A stretch of DNA of 64,000 bases from Roseicyclus persicicus (lineage in GTDB: Bacteria; Pseudomonadota; Alphaproteobacteria; Rhodobacterales; Rhodobacteraceae): assembly GCF_012395815.1 (NCBI RefSeq), contig NZ_JAAZQQ010000003.1:1-64000 (forward strand), written 5' to 3'. The number at the start of each line of letters is the position of its first letter. The first letter of the stretch is position 1. The translations under genes were made by a program, and so were the position numbers. Below are positions 3,965 to 30,086 of this stretch, in pieces. The notes under the pieces were generated by a model. The model was not told the DNA's origin. It saw only the letters and a program-made list of their open reading frames with translations, and searched no databases.

Positions 3965-4618
3965 ATGCATCCGAACCCAGCCTTCCGCCAGGAACCCGAG
4001 TTTCTCAACATCACGCTGGCCCGCCGGCGCGGCTTCGGCACGCTCTGCGTCAACGGCGAGGCGGGCCCGATGCTCAGCCACGTGCCCTTCTGGCTGAACG
4101 ACGCGGCGGACGAGGCCGAGTTGCACCTGGTGCGGTCGAACCCGATCGCGCGGGCGGCGACCGGCCCGATCCCCGCCGTGATCGCGGTGATGGGGCCCGA
4201 TGGCTACATCTCGCCCGACTGGTACGGCGACCCCGCGCAGGTGCCGACCTGGAACTACGTCGCGGTCCACCTGCGGGGCCACCTGCACCCGGCCGACCCG
4301 GGCGACATGCGCCCGCACCTCGACCGGATCTCGGCCCAATTCGAGGACCGGCTGGCGCCGAAGAAGCCCTGGACCGTCGCCAAGATGCCGCCCGAGACGC
4401 TGGAGCGGATGATGCGCGGCATCCTGCCCTTCCGCTTCACGGTCGAACAGGTCGACGGCACCTGGAAGCTGAACCAGAACAAGACCGACGCCGCGCGCGA
4501 GGCGGCGGCCGAGGCGGTGCGCCATTCCCCCGTCGGCCACGAGGTCGAGACGCTGTCGGCGCTTATGACGGGCGGCGTGCCGGAAATAGACAAGGGCGCG
4601 CCCTTCACCTACATCTGA
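3965..4618 (+). CDS. FMN-binding negative transcriptional regulator (PaiB family)
   Basis: A 217-aa protein with the split-barrel flavin-binding fold of the PaiB/YetL group. It begins MHPNPAFRQEP and has the family motifs HVPFWLN, NPIARA, ISPDWYG and VPTWNYVAVH, plus the C-terminal KLNQNKTD block. Members bind FMN and some act as negative regulators of sporulation or degradative enzymes in Bacillus; in Proteobacteria the role is mostly unproven and they may be heme- or flavin-degrading or reducing enzymes. It stands alone, 46 bases after mtaB. Confidence 0.88.
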   Translation: MHPNPAFRQEPEFLNITLARRRGFGTLCVNGEAGPMLSHVPFWLNDAADEAELHLVRSNPIARAATGPIPAVIAVMGPDGYISPDWYGDPAQVPTWNYVAVHLRGHLHPADPGDMRPHLDRISAQFEDRLAPKKPWTVAKMPPETLERMMRGILPFRFTVEQVDGTWKLNQNKTDAAREAAAEAVRHSPVGHEVETLSALMTGGVPEIDKGAPFTYI

Positions 4619-4652
4619 CCCCGAAGACCCCAGCCGCAAGGGAGGTTGCGCC

Positions 4653-20896: not shown

Positions 20897-21628
20897 TCAG
20901 AAGAACAGGCGCCGGTAGAGCCCGTGGGGCAGGAAGGCGCTGCCCCGGAAGGCGAGGCTGAACAGGGTCGGGAAGCTGCGCGCGAAGCGGCTGCCGCACA
21001 TGTGCTGGAAGAAGATGTCTGCGGCCGGCTCCGGCTCCATGATGAAGGGCATGGAGAAGTCGTTCTTGTCGGTCAGCCGCGTCTTGATGAAGCCGGGGTT
21101 CACCAGCTGCACGTCGACGCGCGTGTCCTTGAGGTCGCCGTCGAGCGATTCCGCCAGCGAATAGAGCCCCGCCTTGGACGCGGCATAGCCGATGGCGCCC
21201 GGCAGCCCGCGGAACCCCGACAGGCTGCCGGTCAGCACGATGTGGCCTGCGTTCCTTGCCACGAAGGCGGGCACGACATGGCCCAGCACGCGGGCTGCGC
21301 CGGTCAGGTTCACGTCGAACATGGTCTCGACCGCCTCGGCGTCCCAGTTCGTCGCCGGCACGGGCCAGTAGACGCCGGCGAGGAACACCATGCCGTCGAT
21401 CTCGCCCACCTCGGACCACGCGCGCGCCACGCTGTCGCGGTCGGCGATGTCCATCGCCACGCAGGTCGCCCGCCCCGGCAATTCGGCGGCCAGCGCCTCG
21501 AGCCGCTCCATCGACCGCGCCGACAGGACCAGCTCCACCCCCGCCCGGCTCATCTTGAGCGCCAGCGCGCGGCCCAGGCCCTCGGACGCGCCCACCAGCC
21601 AATAGCGTTTTCCGCTCCAGTCCCGCAT
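20897..21628 (-). CDS. short-chain dehydrogenase/reductase, sigma-E operon
   Basis: 243-aa classical SDR. NAD(P) motif is VGASEGLGRALA (residues 12-23). The catalytic Ser135 (TGSLSG), Tyr148 and Lys152 (YAASK) are all present. The C-terminal part is hydrophobic (FARSFPTLFSLAFRGSAF), suggesting a membrane-near lipid substrate. Last gene of the four-gene operon running from the FAD oxidase at 24938; SD AAGGAG. In Rhodobacter sphaeroides a comparable operon is a direct sigma-E target (from memory). Confidence 0.88.
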   Translation of the reverse strand: MRDWSGKRYWLVGASEGLGRALALKMSRAGVELVLSARSMERLEALAAELPGRATCVAMDIADRDSVARAWSEVGEIDGMVFLAGVYWPVPATNWDAEAVETMFDVNLTGAARVLGHVVPAFVARNAGHIVLTGSLSGFRGLPGAIGYAASKAGLYSLAESLDGDLKDTRVDVQLVNPGFIKTRLTDKNDFSMPFIMEPEPAADIFFQHMCGSRFARSFPTLFSLAFRGSAFLPHGLYRRLFF

Positions 21629-21640
21629 CAGGGTCTCCTT

Positions 21641-22885
21641 TCAGATCGTGGCATGACGCCCGCCCTCGGGCAGCGGCGTCGTCGCCAGCACCGCCATCGC
21701 GCCCAGCTTCAGGACGCAGGGCACCAGCGCGTAGAGATAGGTCAGAAGGTCGAGCGCGCCCGGCGGGCTGTCGCCGCCCGACACGAAGCCCGCCGCATCC
21801 AGCGCGGGCAACAGGACGACGGCGGCGAAGGCCAGCGTCAGTTTCGACACGAAGGCCCAGAGCCCGAAGGCCGCCGCCGCCTCGGGCGCGACCTGTTCCA
21901 TGCGACGGGCGAAGAGCGCGGGCAGGAGGGCGAAATCGGCCCCCAGCGCGGCCCCCGAGGCGAGGCAGACGAGGGCGAAGAGCGTGGTGTCGCCGGCGCC
22001 GAGCGTGAGCACGACCGAGAAGGAGGCGATGGCAAGCGCCATGGCCGACAGCAGCATCGCGCGGGCGCCGAAGCGGGCGGCCAGCCGCGCCCAGACCGGC
22101 GCGGCCCCGGCGGCGGCTAGGAAGAACAACAGAAGGAGCGGCCCCTCCCACCCCGGGGCCTGCAGCACGCTTTCGACGTAGAACAGGAACAGGGTGGAGG
22201 ACACCGCCACGGGCGCCGCGTTCATCAGCGCGACCAGCAGCAGTCGCCGCGCGATGGCGTCGCCCAGCACCGCGCCGAAGCCCGAGGCGCCGGGCGCCGC
22301 GCCGCCCCCGGTCCAGTCCCGCCGCATGAGCCAGAGCGCGACGGCGCACAGCCCCGCGAAGCCCAGCGCGAAGTTGCCGTAGGGATCGCCGGTGGCGTCG
22401 AGGAGCGCGGGCGCGACGGCGGCGGCGCAGACCCCCAGCAGCGCGCCGGTCTCGCGCCAGGCGGCAAGGCGCAGGTAGCCCTGCGGCCCGAGGCGCGGGG
22501 CGGCGGCGACCCCCTGCGCGTACATGCAGATCGTCAGGAAGGAGAAGGCCGAGAACAGGCCCGTCATCGTCAGCGCGAACCACCAGACCGGCGCGATGGG
22601 GGGCGCCACGGCGAACAGCCCCAGCATCGACACCGCCAGCACCCCGACACCCCCCAGAACCGCCAGCGCCCGGTGCGCCCTGAGCCGCTGCGCCAGCCAG
22701 CCCAGCGCGGGGTCCTGCACCACGTCGAACAGGCGCAGCGCGAACAGCACGCCGGCCAGCGCCGTCAGCCCGACGCCGTAGTCGTCGACGTAGACCTTGG
22801 GCGCGTGGATGTAGATGGGCAGCCCGGCGGCCGCCAGCATCGCGGCAAAGACCGCGTAGCCGGGTCGCGACGGGGCATGGGACAT
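21641..22885 (-). CDS. MFS transporter (MelB/GPH-like), sigma-E operon
   Basis: 414 aa with about twelve helices. It begins MSHAPSRPGYAVFAAMLAAA, with the cation-symporter-like motif RLFDVVQDPALGWLAQRLRAH in loop 2-3 resembling the GPH (MelB) group. The start at 22885 lies 2 bases after the DUF1365 stop, favouring it over the 435-aa frame. The substrate is unknown; its place in an oxidative-stress operon suggests a lipid-related or photoproduct cargo (inference). Confidence 0.82.
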   Translation of the reverse strand: MSHAPSRPGYAVFAAMLAAAGLPIYIHAPKVYVDDYGVGLTALAGVLFALRLFDVVQDPALGWLAQRLRAHRALAVLGGVGVLAVSMLGLFAVAPPIAPVWWFALTMTGLFSAFSFLTICMYAQGVAAAPRLGPQGYLRLAAWRETGALLGVCAAAVAPALLDATGDPYGNFALGFAGLCAVALWLMRRDWTGGGAAPGASGFGAVLGDAIARRLLLVALMNAAPVAVSSTLFLFYVESVLQAPGWEGPLLLLFFLAAAGAAPVWARLAARFGARAMLLSAMALAIASFSVVLTLGAGDTTLFALVCLASGAALGADFALLPALFARRMEQVAPEAAAAFGLWAFVSKLTLAFAAVVLLPALDAAGFVSGGDSPPGALDLLTYLYALVPCVLKLGAMAVLATTPLPEGGRHATI

Positions 22886-22887
22886 GG

Positions 22888-23649
22888 TCAGGAGACTTCT
22901 TGCTCCGGCGGGGTCGGCCGCACGCGGTAGGGCGCGCCCTTCCACCACAGCTTCAGCGCCTGCCAGTGGATCAGGGCCAGCACCCGCCGCGCGCCGAGGG
23001 GGCGGCGGACGGCCGAGCGCAGGATGCCCCAGCTGGTCAGCGGCGCGCGCCTGCCGGTCAGCGTGGCCAGCACGCCCTCGTTCCCGGTGGAATAGTCGAT
23101 CCAGACCCCCACCCGGTCGTCGCGGATGTCGAAGCGGAAGGTGTAGCCGCCCTCGATCGGCTGGAACGGCGACACGTGAAAGATCTTCTGCGCGCGAAGC
23201 GTGTCCTCGCGCGTGATCGGCCGCTGGTCGTGGTGCGCGCAGAGGTAGGAATGCCGGTCGCCGAAGGTGTTCGTCACCTCGGCGATCACCGCGCGCAGCC
23301 GCGCCTGCCGGTCATGGGCCAGCCAGAAGGACACCGGGTTGAACACGTGCCCCAGCATCCGCGGCTGCGCGAGCAGCATCAGCCGCCCGTCGGTCACGTC
23401 CGACAGCCCATGCGCCGCCAGCACCTCGCGCGCCCAAGCCGCCCCGCGGCCCTGCTTCGGCGCGCCGCCGTGGTCGATGTCGTGCAGCGCCGTCAGACCC
23501 GCGCGGTTGCGGCCGAACAGCCAGGGGGCCCGCGGGCGGGCCTCCTCGGCGTCCAGCATCACGTAGTCGATGGAGTAGGTGAAGGCATTCTCCACCGCGC
23601 CCCGCCGCCCGTGGAAGGTGGACCCGGCGATATGATCGACCCGGCTCAT
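22888..23649 (-). CDS. DUF1365 family protein, sigma-E operon
   Basis: 253-aa protein with the DUF1365 blocks IAGSTFHGRRGAVENAFTY, FNPVSFWLAHD, FGDRHSYLC and KIFHVSPFQPIEGGYTF. The family has no proven biochemical role and is nearly always found beside an FAD amine-oxidase-like protein and a cyclopropane-fatty-acid-synthase-like methyltransferase, so a membrane-lipid modification is likely. It overlaps the oxidase stop codon (ATGA). No methyltransferase gene is in this window. Confidence 0.92.
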   Translation of the reverse strand: MSRVDHIAGSTFHGRRGAVENAFTYSIDYVMLDAEEARPRAPWLFGRNRAGLTALHDIDHGGAPKQGRGAAWAREVLAAHGLSDVTDGRLMLLAQPRMLGHVFNPVSFWLAHDRQARLRAVIAEVTNTFGDRHSYLCAHHDQRPITREDTLRAQKIFHVSPFQPIEGGYTFRFDIRDDRVGVWIDYSTGNEGVLATLTGRRAPLTSWGILRSAVRRPLGARRVLALIHWQALKLWWKGAPYRVRPTPPEQEVS

Positions 23650-24938
23650 GCCGCCAGCGCCGCCCCGTCGCGCGCGGCCATCGCCTCGACCACGTCCATG
23701 GCGCTGCCATAGCCGTCCTCGTGGAAGCCGTTCTTCATCCAGGCGCCGCAGAACCAGGTGTTGTTCTGCCCGTTCATCGCCCGCACCGCCCCCTGCGCCG
23801 CCAGCGCGGCGAGGTCGTAGACCGGGTGGCGGAACTCGGCCACGTCGTAGATCAGCTTGTCATCGATGGGCGCGCGGCTGTTCAGCGTGACGAACAGCGG
23901 GTCGCTTTCCGGGATCGGCTGCAGGCAGTTCATCCAGTAGGTCAGGTCGATGGGCCCGCCCTCGTGGCCGCGGCGCTCGGTGTAGTTCCACGACGACCAG
24001 GTCGCGCGGCGCCGGGGCATCGCGCGGGCGTCGGCGTGCAGCACGGCGGTGTTGGGCTGGTAGCGCACGGCGCCCAGCGCGGCGCTTTCCTGCGGGGTCG
24101 GGTCGGCCAGCATCCGCAGCGTGTCGTCGGAATGGGTGGCGAAGACGACCTCGTCGAACACCTCCCAGTGGCCCTGCCGCCGCACCTCGACGCCCAGCGC
24201 GGACCGCTTGACCGTCTCGATGGGGGACGCGAGCCGGATCTCGACGCCCTTCAGCATCATCGCCCGCTCCAGCCGCGTGACGTATTCGATGGACCCGCCC
24301 TTGACCGTGTACCACTGGTGCTGGCCGGTCGACTGCAGCAGGTGATGGTTGCGGAAGAACCGCACCAGCGCCTGCGCGGGGAAATCCATGATCTCCTCCT
24401 TGGGCGTCGACCAGATCGCGCCCGAGATCGGGGTCATGTAGTAGTCGCGGAACCAGCGGCCCATGCCCATCTGGTCCATCAGCTCGCCCAGCGTGATGGT
24501 CGAATCGGTCGCCACCCGTTCCGCCTCGGCGTTGAAGCGCAGGAGGTCGCGGATCATGCGCAGGAAGCCCGGGTTGGCGATGTTGCGCTTCTGCGCGAAC
24601 AGCGCGCCGAGGTTGCGCAGCCCGTATTCGATCGCGCCGCCGCCGATCGAGGCGGCAAAGCTCATGTCGGACTTCGCCACCGGCACGTCCAGCTCGGCGA
24701 AGAGGCGGGTCAGGTGCGGGTAGTTGGCGTGGTTGAACACGATGAAGCCCGTGTCCACCGGCTGGTCGCCATGCTTGCCGGCCACGATGGTGCGGGCGTG
24801 GCCACCCAGCCGCGGCTCGGCCTCGAACAGCGTCACCGAATGCTGGTCGGACAGGTGGTAGGCAGCCGCCATCCCCGAGATCCCTGCGCCGATCACGGCA
24901 ATACGTTTCGGCGCGGCGGCCGGCTGTTCGAATGGCAT
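23646..24938 (-). CDS. FAD-dependent amine-oxidase-like protein, first gene of the sigma-E operon
   Basis: 430 aa. The dinucleotide motif is IAVIGAGISGMAAAY (residues 13-27) with the FAD ribose Glu at E39 (LFEAEPRLGGHA). The C-terminal flavin-binding block is NTWFCGAWMKNGFHEDGYGSA. It belongs to the NAD(P)-binding, protoporphyrinogen-oxidase/desaturase-like group beside DUF1365 genes. The start at 24938 is chosen because a sigma-E promoter lies 45 bases upstream and the longer frame (25010) would begin at that promoter's -35. In R. sphaeroides related RpoE-controlled genes were linked to furan fatty acid formation (memory; exact orthology not testable here). Confidence 0.88.
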   Translation of the reverse strand: MPFEQPAAAPKRIAVIGAGISGMAAAYHLSDQHSVTLFEAEPRLGGHARTIVAGKHGDQPVDTGFIVFNHANYPHLTRLFAELDVPVAKSDMSFAASIGGGAIEYGLRNLGALFAQKRNIANPGFLRMIRDLLRFNAEAERVATDSTITLGELMDQMGMGRWFRDYYMTPISGAIWSTPKEEIMDFPAQALVRFFRNHHLLQSTGQHQWYTVKGGSIEYVTRLERAMMLKGVEIRLASPIETVKRSALGVEVRRQGHWEVFDEVVFATHSDDTLRMLADPTPQESAALGAVRYQPNTAVLHADARAMPRRRATWSSWNYTERRGHEGGPIDLTYWMNCLQPIPESDPLFVTLNSRAPIDDKLIYDVAEFRHPVYDLAALAAQGAVRAMNGQNNTWFCGAWMKNGFHEDGYGSAMDVVEAMAARDGAALAA

Positions 24939-24982: not shown

Positions 24983-25009
24983 TTACGGGCCTCAAGCTGC
25001 GGCAGATCA
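24983..25009 (-). promoter_or_regulatory. ECF sigma-E promoter of the oxidase/DUF1365/MFS/SDR operon
   Basis: On the minus strand TGATCT (25004-25009) and CGTAA (24983-24987) are separated by 16 bases. The layout equals that of the divergent rpoE promoter (TGATCC-N16-CGTAA). TGATC plus CGTA is the element pair known for RpoE/ECF11 promoters in R. sphaeroides. Confidence 0.75.
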
Positions 25010-25022
25010 AAGAAAATAAATT

Positions 25023-25049
25023 TGATCCGGTCTAGGGAGAATCTCGTAA
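25023..25049 (+). promoter_or_regulatory. ECF sigma-E promoter of rpoE-chrR (autoregulation)
   Basis: TGATCC (25023-25028) and CGTAA (25045-25049) are separated by 16 bases. The start point would fall near 25056, so the ATG at 25057 cannot be the rpoE start, which supports the ATG at 25168 and a leader of about 110 bases. Confidence 0.8.
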
Positions 25050-25167
25050 CCCGGGTATGCTGCTGTCGAACGACCACGCTGACCAGCCAGCCGACGCCTT
25101 GCCGGGGCCCGCCGAAGCCCTGCATAAGGTGCGTCGGCCAGAAAGGCGTGCGCAGACCGTGACGGCA

Positions 25168-25707
25168 ATGGAAAAGACCGAAGCGCATTGGGTGGCCACC
25201 ATCGCCGCCATTGCGCAGAACCAGGATCAGAAGGCCTTCGCCGAGGTGTTTCGCCACTTCGCGCCGAAGGTGAAGGCGTTCCTGATCAAGTCGGGGGCCG
25301 ACGTGAGCCTCGCGGAGGAGTGCATGCAGGACGTGATGGCCACGCTCTGGCACAAGGCGCATCTCTACGACCCGTCGCGGGCCTCGGTCGCGACGTGGAT
25401 CTTCACCATCGCCCGGAACCGCAAGATCGACCTGCTGCGCCGCTACGCCCGGCCCGAACCCGAGGACCTGCCCTGGGGCCCCGAGGATGCACCGGACCAG
25501 GCCGACGTCATCGCGCTCCAGCAGGAATCGACCAAGCTCGCGGAGGCGATCCGCAAGCTCCCCGCAAAACAGCGGGAATTGATCGAACGCGCCTATTTCG
25601 GCGATCTGACCCACAGCGAAATCGCTGCGGAAACCGGATTGCCCCTTGGCACGATCAAGTCCCGCATTAGGTTGGCGCTGGAAAGGTTGCGCCACGCAAT
25701 GAATTAA
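25168..25707 (+). CDS. rpoE: ECF sigma factor RpoE (ChrR-partnered, ECF11 type)
   Basis: 179-aa sigma factor. Region 2 spans about residues 24-95 (AFAEVFRHFAPKVKAFLIKS, EECMQDVMATLWHKA, VATWIFTIARNRKIDLLRR), region 4 about 120-175 (LPAKQRELIERAYFGDLTH, SEIAAETGLPLGTIKSRIR). Sequence and partner match RpoE of R. sphaeroides, which drives the singlet-oxygen response. The start at ATG 25168 fits family length; a GTG at 25159 is possible. chrR follows 9 bases later, and the promoter is autoregulatory. Confidence 0.95.
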   Translation: MEKTEAHWVATIAAIAQNQDQKAFAEVFRHFAPKVKAFLIKSGADVSLAEECMQDVMATLWHKAHLYDPSRASVATWIFTIARNRKIDLLRRYARPEPEDLPWGPEDAPDQADVIALQQESTKLAEAIRKLPAKQRELIERAYFGDLTHSEIAAETGLPLGTIKSRIRLALERLRHAMN

Positions 25708-25716
25708 GGAGGCCGA

Positions 25717-26358
25717 ATGCCCGCCATTCGCCATCATATCCCGGACGATCTCTTGATGGGCTACGCCGCCGGCGTCCTGCCCCAGGCGTTCGATCTCGTG
25801 GTTGCGACCCACGTCTCGCTCAGCGACGACGCCCGCGCCCGCCTCGCCAGCTACGAGGCGCTGGGCGGGGCCGTCCTGTCCGATCTCGACCAGGCCCAGA
25901 TCGACGAGGACAGCCTCGACCGCACGCTGGCCAAGATCAAGGGCATGGCGCCCGAACCCCGGCCCGAGCCGTCGCGCGGGGTGTTCCCGTCGCCGCTGCG
26001 CAAGGTGGTCGGCGGCGACGCCGATGCCGTGCGCTGGAAGGGCGTGGGCCTCGGGGCCAAGCAGTCGGTCCTGTGCTCGGACGGCGAGGCGACCGCGCGC
26101 CTGCTCTACATCCCGGCCGGCCAGGCGATGCCCAAGCACAGCCACCGCGGCATGGAAATGACGCTGGTGCTGCAGGGCGCCTTCCGCGACGAGGACGGCG
26201 TCTTCGCCCGCGGCGACATCGAGGTGGCCGACCAGCAGGTGGACCATACCCCCATCGCCGAGCCGGGCGAGGATTGCATCTGCCTCGTCGCCACCGACGG
26301 GCGGCTCAAGTTCCAGGGCCTCCTGCCCCGCATCGCGCAGCCTTTCCTCGGCATCTGA
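25717..26358 (+). CDS. chrR: anti-sigma factor ChrR, zinc-site cysteines missing
   Basis: 213 aa, the same length as R. sphaeroides ChrR. The N-terminal anti-sigma domain (about 1-85) should bind zinc through two His and two Cys. Here the His are kept (H7 and H32 in RHH and ATHVSL) but the two Cys positions read Ser36 and Ala39 (HVSLSDDARA). The C-terminal cupin (about 100-195) keeps H141, H143, E147 and H177, at the numbers known for the R. sphaeroides metal site. It should hold RpoE inactive until singlet oxygen or organic peroxide. Whether it binds zinc is doubtful. Directly coupled to rpoE. Confidence 0.93.
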   Translation: MPAIRHHIPDDLLMGYAAGVLPQAFDLVVATHVSLSDDARARLASYEALGGAVLSDLDQAQIDEDSLDRTLAKIKGMAPEPRPEPSRGVFPSPLRKVVGGDADAVRWKGVGLGAKQSVLCSDGEATARLLYIPAGQAMPKHSHRGMEMTLVLQGAFRDEDGVFARGDIEVADQQVDHTPIAEPGEDCICLVATDGRLKFQGLLPRIAQPFLGI

Positions 26359-28930: not shown

Positions 28931-29196
28931 GCACCGGCCAGACCATCCAGCTTGTCCTGCAGGGCCTCGTCTTTCTGGCCTGGGCCGGGCTGATGTTCCG
29001 CACCCTGTTCCTGTGGCGCCGCCGCGCGCAGGACGAGACGGGCGCGGCGCTGCACGGGCCGGGACAGATGCTGAAACAGGCCGGCCGCTGGCTGCGCGCG
29101 CCCGAGGACAAGACCGACCGCAGCACGCTGTTCTTCCTGACCTTCGTGCTTTTCGCGATGATCCTGAGCTCGGTCTTCCTCGGCCCGCCGGGCTAG
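28927..29196 (+). CDS. 89-aa membrane protein, unknown
   Basis: Starts MSTGQTIQLVLQG. Two helices (VLQGLVFLAWAGLMFRTLFL and TLFFLTFVLFAMILSSVFLG) flank a basic/acidic loop. It is the last gene of the hmgA unit. Its TAG stop is shared with the convergent Hint gene in the palindrome CTAG (29193-29196). Confidence 0.75.
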   Translation: MSTGQTIQLVLQGLVFLAWAGLMFRTLFLWRRRAQDETGAALHGPGQMLKQAGRWLRAPEDKTDRSTLFFLTFVLFAMILSSVFLGPPG

Positions 29197-30086
29197 GCCG
29201 CCCGCGCGATCCCCAGCCGCGCCTTCAGCGCCGCCGGCAGCATCCGGGCGGCGGAAATCCGCGGTGCCGGCATCTCGGGCAGGCGCGCGGCCTCGCCATG
29301 GACCGCCATGTAGTCCGCGTGGTTGTCGAAGACCTGCCGCCCGGCATAGTCGATGAAGGTCTCGGCGGGGACGCCCTCGGCGAGGATCAGGTCATGGTCC
29401 GCGGTCTCGACGTGGTAGACGGCGAACAGCTCGCCCAGATCCGACAGGGGCACCCGGTCGATGCTGTGCCCGTTCACCAGCGCACCGGCATCGACCAGCA
29501 GCCCGTCGATGGACAGCGCATGGTCGGCCGTCACCACCAGATCGCGCTGCGGCAGGCCCTCGCCCAGCGCGCCCGCCCGCACCCGCACCGGCTGCAGGCG
29601 CTCCGCCGTGCCGAAGCGCGTGGACAGGGTCTGTCGCCAGAGCCACTTGACCGGAACGCTGCGCCCGTCCGCCGTCATCACCAGATCGCCGGCGGCCAGC
29701 GTCTCGACGGCCCTGTCGCCCCCGGGCGTCCGGATCCGCGTGCCCGCGGCAAAGCAGTTCACCACCTGCGCGTTGTCGTTGAAGGTCACGTCCAGCGGGC
29801 TGGTGAAGACCACGTTGTCCAGCTGCCCGTCATGGGGGATCCGCAATTCACCGGTGGACGCGCTGACGAAGATCGCGAAGTCCTCGCCGTTGATGTTCAC
29901 GGTGTACTGCGAATACAAGACGAAGGTGCTGGTGAGATAGTCGCCGGCGGTGGCGGTGCCGCTGTTGTCCGCATCGACCGCGGTGTTGTTCTGCAGCAGA
30001 TTGACTGTGTTCGTGAAGGTCAGTTGATCGGCGTTGATCGTAGAATTCGAGAAAAGAAGGATCTTCGTGGTTGTCACATTGGCCAT
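29193..30086 (-). CDS. secreted-type Hint-domain protein
   Basis: 297 aa. Residues 1-110 are Asn/Thr/Asp-rich with beta character and no cysteine, resembling an exported adhesin-like or RTX-flanking segment. The Hint (hedgehog/intein) domain begins with the nucleophile Cys in VVNCFAAGTRIRTPGG (about residue 112), has block B as VTADHALSIDG, and ends near YHVETADHDLILAEGVPAETF. No C-terminal Asn-Cys junction is seen, so autocleavage rather than splicing is expected. Such proteins are frequent in Rhodobacteraceae. SD GGAG. The N-terminal third is clearly poorer in GC than the surrounding DNA. Confidence 0.85.
   Translation of the reverse strand: MANVTTTKILLFSNSTINADQLTFTNTVNLLQNNTAVDADNSGTATAGDYLTSTFVLYSQYTVNINGEDFAIFVSASTGELRIPHDGQLDNVVFTSPLDVTFNDNAQVVNCFAAGTRIRTPGGDRAVETLAAGDLVMTADGRSVPVKWLWRQTLSTRFGTAERLQPVRVRAGALGEGLPQRDLVVTADHALSIDGLLVDAGALVNGHSIDRVPLSDLGELFAVYHVETADHDLILAEGVPAETFIDYAGRQVFDNHADYMAVHGEAARLPEMPAPRISAARMLPAALKARLGIARAA

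Follow-up and report, generated by a model that had tools for sequence, protein, structure and literature searches.

The ChrR-type anti-sigma factor encoded in the window (the whole stretch of 64,000 nucleotides of Roseicyclus persicicus DNA that was analysed) has lost both cysteines of its N-terminal zinc site. Loss of the Cys pair is a clade-wide and recurrent trait and not an oddity of one gene. ChrR proteins without the pair, referred to here as zinc-less, probably inhibit sigma-E without zinc, and sense via the cupin domain and a turnover route and not via zinc thiolates.

The chrR gene, its zinc sites and its operon

As originally predicted, chrR occupies positions 25717–26358 of the forward strand, begins with ATG and codes for a protein of 213 amino acids. 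The product was recognised as a ChrR-type anti-sigma factor by matches to TIGR02451, PF12973 and PDB 2Z2S. The score against TIGR02451 is 198.4 bits (curated cut-off 124.5) over model positions 1–215 of 216, and this score, the complete cupin ligand set HHEH and the location of the gene directly after an ECF sigma gene place the protein in the TIGR02451 family. The cupin domain matches PF12973 with 59.5 bits. Against the narrow ChrR equivalog NF051881 the protein reached 166.5 bits, which is below the cut-off of 300, and hence it was not filed under that model. In a phmmer search, residues 3–202 aligned with Rhodobacter sphaeroides ChrR in PDB 2Z2S (2.2e-61).

The zinc ligands of R. sphaeroides ChrR are His6, His31, Cys35 and Cys38 in the anti-sigma domain and His141, His143, Glu147 and His177 in the cupin domain (PMC6852236), in agreement with the ligand pattern given in the original prediction. 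The alignment with 2Z2S runs without gaps through HVSLSDDARA, which corresponds to HLSLCDECRA, and S36-D-D-A39 (25822–25833, forward strand) thus stands in place of C35-D-E-C38. The codons are unambiguous, as had been claimed, being AGC for residue 36 (25822–25824) and GCC for residue 39 (25831–25833). The two histidines reported as retained were read as CAT for H7 (25735–25737) and CAC for H32 (25810–25812), on the same strand, and correspond to His6 and His31 of R. sphaeroides. Since Cys35 and Cys38 are absent, the HHCC zinc site cannot form. The segment reads H-x3-S-x2-A instead of the ZAS motif H-x3-C-x2-C, so that the protein is not a ZAS by motif, though it is homologous to a ZAS member. 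The cupin site H141/H143/E147/H177 (span 26137–26247, forward strand) is intact, as predicted, and none of the 283 aligned rows departs from its HHEH ligands.

Replacement of the lost pair by other cysteines in the fold, which the original prediction had named as a finding that would overturn it, was considered and rejected: residues 1–85 of the window ChrR contain no cysteine, and among the 31 members of the clade described below cysteines are scattered over positions 36, 52, 60, 66 and 69, with at most one per protein. No second, intact ChrR was found in the window's genome at E≤10, the search giving one match in total.

Together with rpoE, chrR forms an operon at 25057–26358 of the forward strand. 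The rpoE (sigma-E) ORF as listed spans 25057–25707, its stop lying 9 nt before chrR. The −10 element ends a mere 8 bases before the listed start; hence ATG 25168 is the likelier start, and the real RpoE would more likely have about 179 amino acids. The sigma-E promoters that had been predicted are present as TGATC-N17-CGTAA on both strands, with 2 matches (spacer N16–18) against 0.03 expected. By motif match, TGATCCGGTCTAGGGAGAATCTCGTAA (25023–25049, forward strand) is the promoter of rpoE-chrR and TGATCTGCCGCAGCTTGAGGCCCGTAA (24983–25009, reverse strand) is a divergent one.

The divergent gene set (20897–24938, reverse strand) encodes a flavin amine oxidase family protein (23646–24938; PF01593, 2.6e-20), a DUF1365 protein (22888–23649; PF07103, 4.9e-72), an MFS_2-type transporter (21641–22888; PF13347, 3.8e-53) and a short-chain dehydrogenase (20897–21628; PF00106, 8.2e-41). 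Matched by position and description according to PMC7074977 and PMC3818230, these are the counterparts of R. sphaeroides RSP_1091, RSP_1090, RSP_1089 and RSP_1087, respectively. In R. sphaeroides, degradation of ChrR in response to singlet oxygen requires RSP_1090 (PMC3818230).

The whole window genome contains four matches to the promoter pattern and none to the reversed control. The third, on contig C3 (L306, ~1501–1610), is exact and stands some 80 bases upstream of a folE2 gene; FolE2 is counted among the RpoE regulon members (PMC7074977). The fourth, on contig C9 (L309, ~1501–1527), is also exact, lies on the minus strand and overlaps a resolvase-like ORF, and is possibly due to chance. 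The window further includes an ORF at 29193–30086 on the reverse strand, in which the sequence CFAAGTRIRTPGG may represent a Hint-type domain.

Distribution of the Cys-pair loss

ChrR was found in 13 of 13 Roseicyclus genomes searched, with 73–100% identity to the window ChrR, and the site is Cys-less in all 13. The other 12 genomes have Ser or Asn at position 36 and Ala at position 39, which rules out the sequencing error that the original prediction had held against itself.

The wider sample comprised 303 loci with 282 unique ChrR sequences, 279 of which were scored at the four ligand sites; L078, L083 and L250 have letters missing at a site and were left unscored, and two G008 loci encode an identical ChrR protein. 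Within the window's family, sampled by one genome per genus, 239 of 296 genomes gave a match and the best 150 of the 239 were read. Across the class, 129 of 289 genomes gave a match, and the 30 best loci plus 40 others, one per family, were read. The class loci lie mostly outside the window's family (66 of 70), and 14 of 65 scorable ones are without the Cys pair. In this sample, 218 of the 279 scored sequences have H, H, C and C at the four sites. The remaining 61 lack the pair: 52 are without both cysteines, nine keep only C36 and none keeps only C39.

In a tree of 269 rpoE-chrR pairs, from which the ligand columns had been removed, the window falls into a 31-member clade with a support of 100, all members of which lack the Cys pair. 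The clade includes Roseicyclus, Roseibacterium, Boseongicola, Rhodophyticola, Thalassobacter and a Yoonia sp. These 31 sequences also group together when RpoE alone (support 98) or the cupin domain alone (65) is used; all support values are SH-aLRT from a quick search. The alignment of homologues suggested with the original prediction thus gave a clade of Cys-less ChrR, and showed in addition that the loss recurs elsewhere, in Devosia (Ser, Gly), Frigidibacter and several single lineages, with four-site states reaching LQDA and MMRL.

The intact-site state changes 15 times on the 269-pair tree and 16 times on the RpoE-only and cupin-only trees. The tree is unrooted and the number of changes does not depend on the root; it is the direction, loss and not gain, that we infer. 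The tree does not include six zinc-less sequences next to which no rpoE match lies (L075, L080, L287, L297, L298 and L300) and which may have other partners.

The surroundings of zinc-less chrR genes were compared with those of Cys-bearing ones. TGATC-N16-18-CGTA was found upstream of chrR in 31 of 31 clade loci, 19 of 24 other zinc-less loci and 195 of 213 loci with the Cys pair, whereas none of the shuffled sequences (one shuffle per locus) had it; the stretch searched, 450–950 nt before chrR, may extend into the beginning of rpoE. In all 31 clade loci the motif lies 685–750 nt before chrR and has a 17-base spacer. Of the long loci, 22 of 24 zinc-less and 20 of 21 Cys-bearing ones have homologues of the amine oxidase and the DUF1365 protein, counted in any orientation.

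The window's genome contains two photosynthetic reaction-centre genes, which, like the breadth of the trait, lay beyond the view of the original prediction. Reaction-centre genes are present in 29 of the 31 clade genomes, the two lacking them being 84% and 92% complete, and the bacteria of the clade should therefore make singlet oxygen. Within the window's family, they were found in 18 of 21 zinc-less versus 80 of 137 Cys-bearing genomes. A general link of Cys loss to phototrophy was nevertheless rejected, as 17 of the 21 zinc-less genomes belong to one clade and none of six Devosia genomes tested has reaction-centre genes (phototrophy was tested in 31 of the 53 loci bearing organism titles). 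Given the reaction-centre genes in 80 of 137 Cys-bearing genomes and the Devosia result, phototrophy is not the cause; the data show only that singlet-oxygen-exposed bacteria live with zinc-less ChrR.

Proposed inhibition and sensing by zinc-less ChrR

All 218 sequences with the Cys pair have H7, as against 29 of the 61 without it, which indicates that the old zinc site was relaxed once the cysteines had gone. All nine sequences with C36 and without C39 have lost H7. In a sister comparison, from which the fifteenth loss, the lone Devosia row L072, was dropped, the majority state of H7 had changed in 11 of 14 losses; the starred branches alone give six independent pairs and a sign test p of 0.0625–0.125 for H7, with no such trend for H32. 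H32 is kept in 55 of the 61 sequences without the pair, and hence may have a second role. Two clade members, L027 and L031 (both 4001–4639), have C36 and are without C39 and H7; they are possible intermediates or reversions, and with their C36 the losses may have come in more than one order.

A shared compensating substitution was sought by comparing the 14 losses with their sisters and was rejected, since only H7 stands out and the rest resembles background variation. In the clade, nine columns of the anti-sigma domain are strongly shifted, seven excluding the two Cys columns; control Cys-bearing clades, which overlap mutually, have up to seven. Clade-fixed residues in ChrR are D11, D26 and R42, along with loss of E23, and positions 53, 90, 130 and 131 of RpoE (numbered by the listed ORF) are fixed or strongly shifted in the zinc-less clade. 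On sequence grounds these residues are candidates for a lineage-specific compensation.

The median pN/pS is 0.293 for residues 1–85 and 0.282 for residues 90–213 (13 genus sequences, 78 pairs). At 65–70% cupin identity, the anti-sigma domains are on average 61% identical in the clade (208 pairs) and 52% in Cys-bearing ChrR (4398 pairs), and conservation is higher in the clade in each cupin-identity band up to 90%; as sequence pairs are not independent, this comparison is read only as no sign of decay. As judged by these values, the anti-sigma domain of zinc-less ChrR is under purifying selection, and its lack of decay argues against loss of inhibition.

A structure model was built from the window ChrR and 52 zinc-less relatives (54 were picked and two with non-ATG starts dropped; nine sequences in the alignment keep C36). 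It has four helices (10–18, 23–35, 37–55 and 66–75) and a mean pLDDT of 86.7. The bundle is kept, with block means of pLDDT of 85–96 over residues 1–50. Its match to 2Q1Z extends over 181 residues at 1.6 A, with a Z of 25.3, and Foldseek ranks 2Q1Z and 2Z2S first. The model gives weak support, since AlphaFold takes no account of metals and 2Z2S was probably among its training structures.

From the purifying selection, the sigma-E promoter in 31 of 31 clade loci and the divergent counterparts of turnover genes, the rpoE-chrR system with zinc-less ChrR looks functional. We infer that its anti-sigma domain carries no metal and that sigma-E binding and the singlet oxygen response are retained. The original prediction had left it open whether inhibition is zinc-free, a different ligand takes over or the sigma factor is more active. 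Of these, the first is favoured here, and the decay of H7 and the conserved anti-sigma domain speak against the other two. According to the proposed mechanism, the protein would be a genuine ChrR with an anti-sigma domain that has given up binding structural zinc. Protein packing alone would hold the four-helix bundle, as in RseA, and sigma-E would still be clamped. Singlet oxygen would inactivate ChrR through the metal-binding cupin domain, which has never been lost, and the divergent furan-fatty-acid/turnover genes next door would act together with the cupin in this inactivation, so that oxidation of zinc thiolates would not be the signal in these bacteria.

The more general proposition, that neither inhibition nor sensing needs the zinc finger and that the sensor is the cupin domain plus a fatty-acid-dependent turnover route, is one towards which we lean slightly. 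It is drawn from the loss of the zinc site about 15 times, the cupin ligands that are intact in all sequences analysed and a clade of mostly phototrophic bacteria that appears to run the response without the site. In R. sphaeroides, the cupin residues Glu147 and His177 are needed for the response, and ChrR without the cupin domain inhibits but does not respond (PMC6852236). Counting against the mechanism proposed above are the reported requirement of zinc binding for inhibition in R. sphaeroides (Newman 2001, via PMC6852236 and PMC6432622) and the fast reaction of a ChrR zinc peptide with singlet oxygen (PMC6432622).

The same zinc requirement (PMC6852236) would agree with a weakened anti-sigma domain that leaves sigma-E partly or wholly constitutive, with chrR retained as a weak brake or for the sake of the cupin; in a clade in which 29 of 31 genomes have reaction-centre genes, it could be of advantage to keep the response primed at all times. 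However, under this reading the anti-sigma domain would hardly be expected to be more conserved than that of Cys-bearing pairs at equal cupin divergence, nor would all 31 clade members be expected to have rpoE next to chrR and a sigma-E promoter in front of it, and runaway activity would be likely if a constitutive sigma factor acted on an autoregulated promoter. A weakened brake is thus unlikely.

It is also unlikely that new ligands, e.g. H6 or H32 with fixed acidic residues, keep a metal in place. D26 and D11 occur in 100% and 93% of the clade versus 9% and 23% of 156 Cys-bearing relatives, R42 is also nearly fixed, and H6 and H32 are kept in 31 and 30 of the 31 members, respectively. But D26 and D11 are not common to the Devosia loss, and other losses show LQDA or MMRL at the four sites. 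The drift of H7 to N, T, Q, S or P within the clade argues against a site rebuilt with the old ligands. Clade member L109 (1498–2139) has P7, A32, D36 and A39, all four former ligands being gone, and still has rpoE and the sigma-E promoter, which makes it a good test protein.

No evidence was found for reading the gene as a sequencing error, as a pseudogene or as a divergent paralogue with an intact ChrR elsewhere in the genome, and this reading is refuted by the Cys-less site in 13 of 13 genus genomes with open frames free of stops, the single match in the window's genome and a pN/pS of about 0.29.

Relation to known anti-sigma factors

R. sphaeroides ChrR (2Z2S, 2Q1Z; TIGR02451), the partner of which is sigma-E of group ECF11, has the same two domains, rpoE operon and cupin HHEH set, and the same divergent genes of the RSP_1091/1090 type behind RpoE-type promoters; the fold match of the model is that given above (Z 25.3). 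Unlike it, the window ChrR lacks Cys35 and Cys38. ChrR is still described by two conserved cysteines (PMC8999054), and a literature search of limited depth found no published mention of ChrR without the Cys pair.

The zinc thiolates of ChrR have been argued to be a likely singlet oxygen target, with no data that rule out their involvement (PMC6432622), and the role of the anti-sigma zinc in the response has been called unknown (PMC6852236). As the site is lost in a whole, mostly photosynthetic clade and repeatedly elsewhere, zinc is probably not the sensor. Natural thiolate-less ChrR proteins in phototrophs with the rest of the pathway make this question directly testable: a response by a zinc-free ChrR would mean that sensing does not lie with the thiolates.

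Anti-sigma domains that do without zinc are known already. The anti-sigma domain of E. coli RseA, like that of zinc-less ChrR as proposed here, is a bundle of helices that contains no zinc and inhibits an ECF sigma factor, and protein-protein interactions can stabilise its bundle in place of zinc (PMC6852236). RseA differs in being membrane-bound and responsive to envelope stress, and the passages on it report no significant sequence similarity between RseA and ChrR (PMC6852236, PMC3818230). Inhibition of SigW by B. subtilis RsiW is insensitive to oxidation or the absence of zinc (PMC5358783), but RsiW keeps its CHCC motif and is a membrane protein.

About 72% of soluble anti-sigma domains carry the zinc motif (PMC7406223). 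In groups AS19-1, AS27 and AS33-1/2 of that study, Hx3Cx2C is lost or kept among near relatives, as in ChrR, and such mixed zinc/non-zinc class I groups were taken to suggest a structural zinc; ChrR/ECF11 is not named as a mixed group in the excerpted text. The natural zinc-less ChrR proteins offer a ready comparison for the way in which a helical bundle that depends on zinc can come to do without it.
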